This document shows positions 39,579 to 41,792 of a DNA stretch of 64,000 bases, in pieces (within the stretch, counting starts at the first letter, position 1; every line of letters begins with the position of its first letter). The translations under genes and the position numbers were made by a program. The notes under the pieces are model-generated. The model ran no database searches. It was not told the DNA's origin and saw nothing but the letters and a program-made list of their open reading frames with translations. The DNA comes from Gemmatimonas sp. (GTDB lineage Bacteria; Gemmatimonadota; Gemmatimonadetes; Gemmatimonadales; Gemmatimonadaceae): positions 186,001-250,000 of the forward strand of contig NZ_JAPZSK010000014.1 of NCBI RefSeq assembly GCF_027531815.1. Direction: 5' to 3'.

Positions 39579-40244
39579 TCAGGGGGTGGAGCGGAGCCCG
39601 CGCAGCAGGAGGTGGGCAATCCCCATCCCGATCTGCTGTGCCGCCCGCGTGTCGACGATCTGCGAACACGCAGACATCGAGGCCGTCCCGTGCAAGCCGA
39701 GCCAGAGCATCATGGCCACCTGAAGGGGCTGGTATGATCTCGCCTCGCCGGCCGCACACAAGGCCTCGCAGACCCGAATGAGCACGCCGAACGCCGGATC
39801 GTTATGGAGGTCTGCCGTTCCGTCAGGAAGAATGCCGATGTCCGGTCGGTCGACGAACATGACCCGGTACCGCGCCGGCTGCGCCAGCGCGAAGCGCAGG
39901 TAGGCGTCACCGAGGGCGAGGACGCGCTCGCCGGCGGCGGCCTCGGGACGATCCGCCTCATCGAGCGCGCGAGCGAATTGCAGAAACCACTTCTCCAGGA
40001 CCGCCGCGATCAGGGCCTCGCGATCGCGGAAGTGGCGGTAGATAGTGGTAGGCGTGTACTGCGTGGCCTCCGCCACTTCCCGCAAGGAAAAGGCCCCATA
40101 CCCCTTCTCGAGCAGCTGTTCCTCCGCGACCGCCAGCAGCAGATCCCGCAACCGCCCACGCTGCGCCTCACGCCTCTCCGCCGACCGGTGGCGGAGACGT
40201 TCAGCTCGCGAAAGCAGGCCGTCCTGCGGTTCCTTGGTAGCCAT
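39579..40244 (-). CDS. TetR/AcrR-family regulator next to a TonB receptor
   Basis: 221 residues from ATG 40244. After a basic N-terminus, the DNA-binding domain reads LLLAVAEEQLLEKGYGAFSL then REVAEATQYTPTTIYRHFRDREAL (about 35-78). The ligand domain (FALAQPARYRVMFVDRP then VAMMLWLGLHGTASMSACSQ) belongs to the TetR_C_13/WHG-like group. Its promoter has a perfect -35 (TTGACA) with a TGTTAACA palindrome in the spacer, a classic autorepression layout, and a related site precedes the receptor gene. The ligand may be the compound the receptor imports. Confidence 0.92.
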   Translation of the reverse strand: MATKEPQDGLLSRAERLRHRSAERREAQRGRLRDLLLAVAEEQLLEKGYGAFSLREVAEATQYTPTTIYRHFRDREALIAAVLEKWFLQFARALDEADRPEAAAGERVLALGDAYLRFALAQPARYRVMFVDRPDIGILPDGTADLHNDPAFGVLIRVCEALCAAGEARSYQPLQVAMMLWLGLHGTASMSACSQIVDTRAAQQIGMGIAHLLLRGLRSTP

Positions 40245-40252
40245 GGTCTTTT

Positions 40253-40280
40253 AGGTTACACTGTTAACATTGATTGTCAA
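40253..40280 (-). promoter_or_regulatory. TetR promoter with operator palindrome in the spacer
   Basis: Read leftward: TTGACA (-35, 40280-40275), 16-bp spacer containing the 8-bp palindrome TGTTAACA (40262-40269), then TAACCT (-10, 40258-40253). The start codon follows 8 bp later, so the leader is very short. Confidence 0.5.
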
Positions 40281-40344
40281 GCCCGGCGCCCGGACCACTC
40301 GACCGGCTCGGCCCCGATACCCTTCCCCACCCACCGGAGCACGC

Positions 40345-40458
40345 ATGTTCGTGTTTGGCCATGTCGCTGCAGGAGGCCCCGCCCTCTGGACACAACTCAC
40401 CACACGTGGCGTGCCTCCCGAAGCGCCGGTGCCGCTGCTGTCGGTACCCTCGGTCTGA
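40345..40458 (+). CDS. 37-residue ORF coupled to the Crp/Fnr gene
   Basis: ATG 40345 has an excellent Shine-Dalgarno (CGGAG, six bases upstream). The ORF encodes MFVFGHVAAGGPALW... and ends PLLSVPSV; its TGA overlaps the ATG of the Crp/Fnr gene by one base (TGATG). No family recognised and no clear membrane span. It may be a small protein or a translational-coupling leader that sets regulator output, since the regulator's own start lacks a good ribosome site. Confidence 0.45.
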   Translation: MFVFGHVAAGGPALWTQLTTRGVPPEAPVPLLSVPSV

Positions 40459-41063
40459 TGGCAGACACAGTCCGCGGGAGCGAAGGGGCCGAGGTCGTGC
40501 GGCGGGTGCTTTCGCGGCCCGCCCCCCTCACCGACACCGAATGGAGCGTGCTCCGGCCGCTCCTGCGACGCAAGGCGCTCCAGGCAAGGCAGCCGCTCCT
40601 GCGAGCCGGCGAGGTGTGCCGTGACCTGGCGTTCGTCGAGTGCGGATTGCTGCGGTACTTCCTGGTGGGCGACGGCAGGGAGTTCACCGGGAACTTCTTC
40701 TTCGAGGAGAGCGTCGCGGCCGATTACGGGAGCTTCGTGTCCCAAACCGCGGCCACACAGTGGGTGGATGCCGTTGAGGACTCGGTGGTCTGGCTCCTTG
40801 GCTACACGGAGCTGCAGCGCCTCTATGCCTCGTCGGCGGCGTGGGAGCGCCGAGGGCGCCTCATTGCCGAGGCCGTACTGGCGGCGGCCCAGCGGCGCAC
40901 GGCCGCGTTGGTGCTCCAGGATGCCGAGGCTCGCTACCGTGCGATGGTCACGGAGCGCCCGAAGATCCTCGAACGCGTCCCGAAACACATGATTGCCGCC
41001 TATCTCGGCATTACCCCCGAAGCGTTGAGTCGCTTACGCCGGAAACTCGCGCGCGGGACTTGA
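40458..41063 (+). CDS. Crp/Fnr-family transcription regulator
   Basis: 201 residues from ATG 40458. The N-terminal cyclic-nucleotide-binding-like barrel (LLRAGEVCRDLAFVECGLLR, FLVGDGREFTGNFFFEESV) lacks the canonical cAMP pocket. The C-terminal helix-turn-helix HMIAAYLGITPEALSRLRRK (177-196) is the form common in Bacteroidetes Crp-like proteins. Its recognition helix has Glu188-x-x-Ser191-Arg192, the same E-x-x-S-R that FNR uses to read TTGAT half-sites. Two Cys (54, 62) are too few for an FNR-type iron-sulfur cluster. An FNR-type box overlaps the stop codon, just before the next gene. Divergent from the TetR gene. Confidence 0.9.
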   Translation: MADTVRGSEGAEVVRRVLSRPAPLTDTEWSVLRPLLRRKALQARQPLLRAGEVCRDLAFVECGLLRYFLVGDGREFTGNFFFEESVAADYGSFVSQTAATQWVDAVEDSVVWLLGYTELQRLYASSAAWERRGRLIAEAVLAAAQRRTAALVLQDAEARYRAMVTERPKILERVPKHMIAAYLGITPEALSRLRRKLARGT

Positions 41064-41101
41064 CCTGGATCAAGGCGGCGTTCCGGCGCCTCTCCAATCA
41101 T
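41060..41101 (+). promoter_or_regulatory. FNR-type box with class II promoter spacing
   Basis: TTGAC-CTGG-ATCAA (41060-41073) matches the FNR/ANR box TTGAT-N4-ATCAA at nine of ten positions and overlaps the Crp/Fnr stop codon. If its centre is at -41.5, the -10 element should fall at 41096-41101, which reads AATCAT (four of six to consensus), with a start near 41108. It would activate the lipoprotein gene at 41163. Confidence 0.55.
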
Positions 41102-41162
41102 TCGTGCGTCTCTGGCGCCACCAGCGCCAACACCCATCCCGCTCCACCGCTGGAGAGTGCGA

Positions 41163-41792
41163 ATGCGTATCAGCCTGTGTCTGCTGGCAGCCGTGGCTTT
41201 GGTCGGCTCCGGATGCCGCCACGCGAGTCGGCCCCCCGCTACAGCGCCGGCCATTGGCAGCGCCCGTGCGTCCTCTGCGCAGGCCCGCGCCGAGACGCCG
41301 GAAAGCAGATTCGGTCTCGAAACCGATATCCTCTGGCCATTCTTTCCCGGGGCAACGCGGACGCACGTCACCGCCAAGCTGTGGCAGAAGGGGCAACTCC
41401 GTGGGGATGTCTACGCCGGGGTCAATGTGGACTTCCCGCAGGATCGTGAAACGGAAGGACGCTTTGCCGATTACAGCGTGGCCAGCGGCTACCGGCAGTA
41501 CGTCTGGCGCGGGCTTCATGCCGAGTTTTCGCAGACCACCGGACTGGGCGTGCTGCAGGACCACGTCACCACGGGCAAGACCTACAACAGCTTCGATTGG
41601 TTGATGTCGGGATATGTGGGCTACAAGTACCAGTTCCCGGGCAGGAAGCTGTACATCGTGCCCCAATTCGGTATTGCCCGGGTCGTCTACAAGTCGAATC
41701 CCTGGCCGATCTTCGAAGACAAGACGCTGACGAGACAGGTGGGGGAAACGCCCTTCCCACTTGGGGCCTTGCGATTGGGGTACAGCTTTTGA
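41163..41792 (+). CDS. Small beta-barrel-like lipoprotein
   Basis: 209 residues from ATG 41163 (GGAG seven bases upstream; a GTG six bases earlier is in frame). Lipoprotein signal LLAAVALVGSGC, then a disordered Ala/Ser/Pro region and a domain of alternating strands: LRGDVYAGVNVDFP, ASGYRQYVWRGLHAEFSQT, LMSGYVGYKYQFPG, KLYIVPQFGIARVVYK, ending LRLGYSF with terminal Phe. This resembles small outer-membrane barrels of 8-10 strands, though a lipid anchor plus barrel is unusual. No family name can be given. Predicted target of the FNR-type box upstream; the downstream membrane gene may share its transcript. Confidence 0.7.
   Translation: MRISLCLLAAVALVGSGCRHASRPPATAPAIGSARASSAQARAETPESRFGLETDILWPFFPGATRTHVTAKLWQKGQLRGDVYAGVNVDFPQDRETEGRFADYSVASGYRQYVWRGLHAEFSQTTGLGVLQDHVTTGKTYNSFDWLMSGYVGYKYQFPGRKLYIVPQFGIARVVYKSNPWPIFEDKTLTRQVGETPFPLGALRLGYSF

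Follow-up and report, generated by a model that had tools for sequence, protein, structure and literature searches.

The transcription factor FNR of Escherichia coli makes its contacts through E209, S212 and R213, and its FF site is TTGATCTAGATCAA (PMC4505428). Within the CRP/FNR family, Arg at CRP position 180 correlates with G and Glu 181 with A, and one member, HcpR2, often regulates just the neighbouring hcp gene (PMC1274295). The closest solved structure for the regulator described here is PDB 3DN7 (E 7e-61, full-length profile match), a cyclic nucleotide binding regulatory protein of 194 aa whose record holds a structure and a generic name, with no function, operator or target. In the literature that we searched, which leaves most subscription journals outside, neither a target, an operator nor the stop-codon layout of this 3DN7-like family is described.

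We followed up a first-pass annotation of a 64,000-nucleotide stretch of Gemmatimonas sp. DNA (hereafter, the window), which had proposed that an FNR-type box overlaps the stop codon of a Crp/Fnr gene and that this regulator may directly activate the small lipoprotein gene next to it. The comparisons reported below largely support this model and suggest that the design is family-wide. By profile, the window regulator falls in an uncharacterised Crp/Fnr family with abundant members in Bacteroidota and few in Gemmatimonadota; a profile built from 21 relatives (the A3 profile) found matches in 154 of 198 sampled Bacteroidota genomes, with at least 16 and up to about 20 in one genome, and strong members (>200 bits) at no more than six places among the 395 Gemmatimonadota genomes. 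For counts across the family, members were grouped at <60% identity into 84 independent lineages, with one representative each.

The regulator and its gene

The regulator (Table 1) scored 237 bits with the A3 profile and, with its box at -1, belongs to the 3DN7-like regulators with a 3' operator, defined as those with a profile score >100 bits and a dyad no more than 120 bp from their own stop codon. The Crp/Fnr N-terminal cNMP-binding-like beta-roll is present (PF00027, 29.5 bits with a cut-off of 27.5, E 7e-7), and PF00027 was matched by all 21 A3 members. The C-terminal helix-turn-helix carries an E-x-x-S-R helix (T-P-E-A-L-S-R) within a full-length match to Crp/Fnr structures; HTH_Crp_2 reached E 0.013 for the window protein, which is below cut-off, and was found at E<=0.01 in 8 of the 21 relatives. 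As the protein ends 14 residues past the recognition-helix Glu (median among relatives, 13.5), it lacks the beta-wing of CRP and FNR.

The first-pass annotation had described a regulator with E-x-x-S-R recognition residues and without an iron-sulfur cluster set, and both features were confirmed. The only cysteines are Cys54 and Cys62, so that the four-Cys 4Fe-4S set of the FNR oxygen sensor is absent, and the regulator scored 16 bits with the NCBIfam Fnr model (cut-off 228) and 13.1 bits with the NCBIfam CRP model (cut-off 266). Cys54 (codon about 40617-40619) lies in the motif G-x-V-C, and a Cys in this motif occurs in 54 of the 84 lineages.

A 37-aa ORF at 40345-40458 overlaps the regulator start as TGATG and has equal length in G009, the genome that carries the regulator orthologue. 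This ORF was considered as a leader peptide and rejected, since its differences from G009 (8/5/3 by codon position) fall mostly at first and second codon positions and the sequence thus does not appear to be protein-constrained.

Table 1. Coordinates of the features of the regulator locus in the window
Feature	Position	Strand	Basis
Crp/Fnr-type regulator gene, 201 aa	40458..41063 (stop included)	+	ATG 40458; Pfam, A3 profile and PDB 3dn7 matches
Recognition helix T-P-E-A-L-S-R-L-R-R, codons (approximate)	41015..41044	+	sequence, family alignment
Operator TTGACCTGGATCAA (TTGAC-CTGG-ATCAA)	41060..41073	+	sequence; TGA stop codon within first half-site
-10-like AATCAT (putative promoter element)	41096..41101	+	class II distance (columns 36-41, counted from the start of the box)
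Predicted transcription start	41108	+	geometry, box centre at -41.5
Target gene, putative lipoprotein (LVGSGC)	41157..41792	+	sequence, comparison with G005, G009 and G013

The box at the regulator stop codon

The box agrees with TTGATN4ATCAA at nine of ten defined positions, and the regulator's TGA stop codon (41061-41063) forms part of its first half-site, such that the box starts at -1; the earlier report of a nine-of-ten FNR/ANR box overlapping this stop is thus correct. The recognition-helix codons finish some 15 bases 5' of the operator. The relaxed pattern TTGAYN4RTCAA has six exact sites in the genome, compared with five for a reversed control, and the five sites other than the window box, as read by eye, lie within coding ORFs, except for one that covers a start codon. 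Because this motif is not enriched genome-wide, the bare pattern is weak evidence and the placement needed testing. The genome-wide scan also gave no excess of FNR boxes that would indicate a regulon.

With regard to placement, the chance expectation of the box beside this stop codon is 2e-4 for that stretch (68% GC). A weight matrix that was built without the window box scored it at 20.0 bits, and the runner-up site in the 64 kb at 10.7 bits; in the 4.3-Mb genome, no other site matches the family consensus TTGANCTRGNTCAA perfectly, as the window box does. Given its position at the stop of this kind of gene, the box is, by these measures, real rather than a product of chance.

Recurrence of the operator across the family

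An initial scan of all tetramer dyads and spacings, covering 250 bp after and 300 bp before the regulator gene at 39 loci, ranked TTGA-N6-TCAA top among the dyads 3' of the regulator (21 of 39 loci, 0.3 expected); the same dyad was found in none of the 39 loci in the 300 bp upstream. Among the 84 representatives, 23 have the exact dyad within -20 to +120 of the stop codon, with a mean of 0.58 and a maximum of 3 in 300 shuffles and 0-3 in other regions. With extended operator types (TTAA-N6-TTAA, TTAA-N6-TCAA, GTGA-N6-TCAC and others), the patterns of which were derived from the same data, an operator was found 3' of the gene in 41 of 84 lineages, compared with 4, 4, 1, 1 and 0 in equal control regions; operators of the searched types were absent in half of the 84 lineages. 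Of 30 new lineages held out from pattern building, 6 had a site downstream and none had one in any of four control regions, which confirms the direction, at a frequency below that of the pattern-building set. Autoregulatory boxes upstream of the regulator were considered and rejected (0 of 39 loci and 2 of 84 lineages). Finally, for more distantly related Crp/Fnr types, 26 genes were scanned and the dyad was found neither downstream (0) nor upstream (0).

The operator lies at exactly -1 in 12 lineages, where T-TGA, T-TAA or G-TGA of the half-site provides the stop codon; after -1, the commonest offset is +7, seen in 5 lineages. Mapped onto a tree of 61 regulators, the offset -1 label shows 12 changes, suggesting that the stop overlap arose repeatedly, or is easily gained and lost. 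One Gemmatimonadota locus (L036, in genome G112) has no N6 dyad; TTGAC is located at its stop codon, and GATCAA follows 3' of it, with a wider gap between the two.

Pairing of recognition helix and operator

The family consensus operator is TTGATCTAGATCAA, and departures from it follow the recognition helix of the adjacent regulator. The residue after the conserved Glu covaries with half-site base 5, with T alongside Thr, A alongside Phe and C alongside Ser (0 of 5000 permutations); an Arg that precedes the Glu goes with G at base 1 (0 of 5000), and loss of the Arg/Lys after the Ser goes with TTAA operators (9 of 5000), in permutation tests that ignore relatedness and for which close-relative pairs correct in part. 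In 27 disjoint close-relative pairs with different residues after the Glu, 21 sites agreed better with their own regulator and 2 with the other, and 4 tied. Family members with RETLSR have CRP-like GTGA-N6-TCAC operators. The Arg/G and Glu/A rules, like the kind of site, were already known; the correlations of residue 182 with base 5 and of residue 185 with base 3 that were found here by sequence comparison appear to be new.

This covariation makes the adjacent regulator the likely user of the box, rather than another Crp/Fnr protein, and shows cognate pairing between helix and box; together with recurrence of the box across two phyla, it lends weight to the initial proposal that the neighbouring regulator acts there. 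In the window, Ala follows the Glu, a residue that occurs with TTGAC/TTGAT. The other PEALSR lineages have a degenerate box at most, such that the code is thin at this point and the exact half-site preference of the window protein is uncertain.

Promoter geometry and the target gene

Of the 40 Bacteroidota lineages with a site, 19 have a -7 element TTTG that begins at column 40-41, counted from the start of the box (mean per column, 0.71), an offset that centres the box near -41.5. Another TTTG group peaks at columns 62-64; as read from the sequences, these loci have a weaker second box about 23 bp downstream, which likewise stands at class II distance from the core promoter. Tandem operators about 23 bp apart, the second being the weaker, were observed 3' of the regulator at L167, L175, L075, L154, L160 and other loci, and at many such loci the core promoter is displaced by an equal distance. 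The six Gemmatimonadota loci with a box have a -10 A-N3-T pair, at columns 37/41 in four of them and at 38/42 in two, an assignment made partly by eye.

For the window, the box centre at 41066.5 plus 41.5 predicts a start near 41108, which puts the -10-like hexamer AATCAT at -12 to -7. The class II distance originally noted for this hexamer thus holds, and the geometry fits an operator at -41.5 of a class II promoter, with the family core element at the matching distance. The hexamer is weak and is altered in G009, where its counterpart is CATCCT; the A at position 2 and the T at position 6 are kept in G009, and the four remaining Gemmatimonadota loci that have a box share this pair, either in register or shifted downstream by one base. 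A hairpin (TGGCGC-CACCA-GCGCCA, 41113-41129) lies directly 3' of the predicted start, and its GGCGC/GCGCC stem is kept in G009; it may act as a hairpin in the leader, or else as a weak terminator for transcription of the regulator.

Translation of the target probably starts at ATG 41163, behind GGAG, and the predicted transcript would have a leader of about 55 nt with this GGAG before the ATG. The mature part of the target protein is strongly conserved in G005, G009 and G013 and had no match in Pfam, NCBIfam or PDB; from its pattern, our guess is an outer-membrane beta-barrel. Genes 3' of the regulator are co-directional in nearly all loci checked, and family target products, assigned by eye, include short-chain dehydrogenases, NAD-binding proteins, one FMN reductase-like protein and one DJ-1-like protein. 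The co-directional gene and the fixed distance between box and promoter support, by comparison, the class II layout toward the next gene that had been put forward for this locus. Taken across loci, such comparison shows where the operator lies, that it matches the helix, that the target is co-directional and that the core promoter stands at a fixed distance from it.

Orthologous loci and history of the locus

A search of 395 genomes of the phylum and 179 of the family identified a regulator orthologue in G009 only (94% identity). Loss of the box from orthologous loci had been named at the outset as an observation that would count against the model; in G009 the box is identical (14/14), while the next 83 intergenic bases differ by about 22% (a count from the alignment) and third codon positions of the regulator by 11%. 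Because there is one orthologous locus, with flanks about 22% diverged, the 14/14 conservation is modest evidence alone, and footprinting by orthologues is too thin for proof. G005 and G013 encode a target homologue (61-64% identical) and have no regulator, and no box precedes the target homologue in either genome.

At these two loci (L013 and L014), the target homologue lies beside a divergent TetR-like gene, as judged by eye, and the Crp/Fnr gene is absent. The window has a TetR gene (39579-40244, plus the 40230-40300 region) divergent from the regulator that is missing at this place in G009; similarity between the window and G009 starts abruptly near the TetR start codon (TGGTAGCCATGGTC), a pattern that would fit removal or replacement of the TetR gene. 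The pairing of TetR and target genes without a Crp/Fnr gene in G005 and G013 suggests that the regulator may have been inserted between them in the window lineage.

Proposed mechanism and alternative explanations

We consider it quite probable that the locus is a cassette of regulator, operator and a single target, in which the regulator at -41.5 activates the 3' lipoprotein gene. A dimer of the regulator, with a Crp/Fnr fold and without an iron-sulfur cluster, would bind the operator at the end of its own gene, would touch RNA polymerase from -41.5 as a class II activator and, once bound, would switch on the co-directional gene at 41157. As T-TGA of the operator half-site is also the regulator stop codon, no extra DNA is used between gene and operator. 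We infer physical binding, activation rather than repression, and a signal; the latter may be a redox or electrophile cue, as many family targets are redox-enzyme-like and one Cys is common, and the common G-x-V-C Cys together with such targets suggests that it is thiol-based.

Activation by the regulator has to be weighed against repression, in which the regulator would bind the same box and either cover the promoter or block read-through RNA polymerase (a roadblock) until a signal releases the target. Some repressors use operators near -41.5, the box lies between both genes, where any bound protein could halt read-through, and a roadblock requires the placement 3' of the regulator's own gene that is seen here. 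We nonetheless regard repression as unlikely, as box and core promoter are separated by a nearly constant distance, which tracks the nearer box when there are two; a roadblock does not need such a spacing, which is the classical one of class II activators.

The identity of the binding protein and the reality of the box raise two further alternatives. The box is a good FNR site and the genome encodes a second Crp-like protein (C6:425096), such that another cellular Crp/Fnr protein, e.g., a global FNR-like regulator, might bind in place of the adjacent regulator. We judge this very improbable, because only three cNMP-binding-domain proteins were found in the genome (this regulator, the Crp-like C6 protein, neither with an Fe-S set, and a 743-aa ORF), because the C6 protein has S-R-E-T-V-S-R, which would specify GTGA under the code, and lacks Fe-S cysteines, and because such boxes form no genome-wide regulon and the box covaries with the adjacent regulator. 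A separate Fe-S FNR, which the first-pass annotation had raised as the possible true user, was rejected, as the search of the genome turned up no FNR with a cysteine cluster. That the box is a chance palindrome is hardly conceivable; while the relaxed pattern is no commoner genome-wide than its reversed control, the position-specific expectation of 2e-4, recurrence at the same place across the family and retention in G009 all speak against chance, which the family statistics already contradict.

Comparison with known systems

Beyond this locus, we lean towards the view that a large, unstudied Crp/Fnr family is organised as portable cassettes. In each, a stretch of about 100 bp would hold the recognition helix, the operator and the target promoter, and the operator can at the same time serve as the regulator's stop codon; this linkage would allow specificity and operator to change jointly and to travel jointly, also into Gemmatimonadota. 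If so, each locus would display both the protein side and the DNA side of the recognition code, and the family, with many regulator-operator pairs side by side, would be a natural data set for that code; the rules linking residue 182 to base 5 and loss of Arg 185 to TTAA are directly testable. If the layout holds, operator and target would be predictable from sequence alone for a large share of the family. The family-wide placement of an operator at the 3' end of the gene for its own regulator, with a shared stop codon, is not described in the literature searched, which omits most subscription journals.

Compared with CRP (the catabolite gene activator protein), the family has the same fold by profile and RETLSR members with CRP-like operators, whereas the phosphate-binding R-S/T-A signature was not seen, by eye, in the family alignment and the beta-wing is missing. 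HcpR, HcpR2, DNR and NnrR have the Arg 180-G and Glu 181-A correlation in common with the 3DN7-like family; the family was not placed in the HcpR branch here, and its operator, by contrast, abuts the regulator stop codon. The likeness to E. coli FNR extends to its best site (FF), which equals the family consensus, to the Glu/Ser/Arg recognition residues and to class II spacing. Unlike FNR, the family regulator has no four-Cys Fe-S set, it apparently serves one local target rather than a regulon, and its operator closes the gene of the regulator itself, for which it supplies the stop codon.
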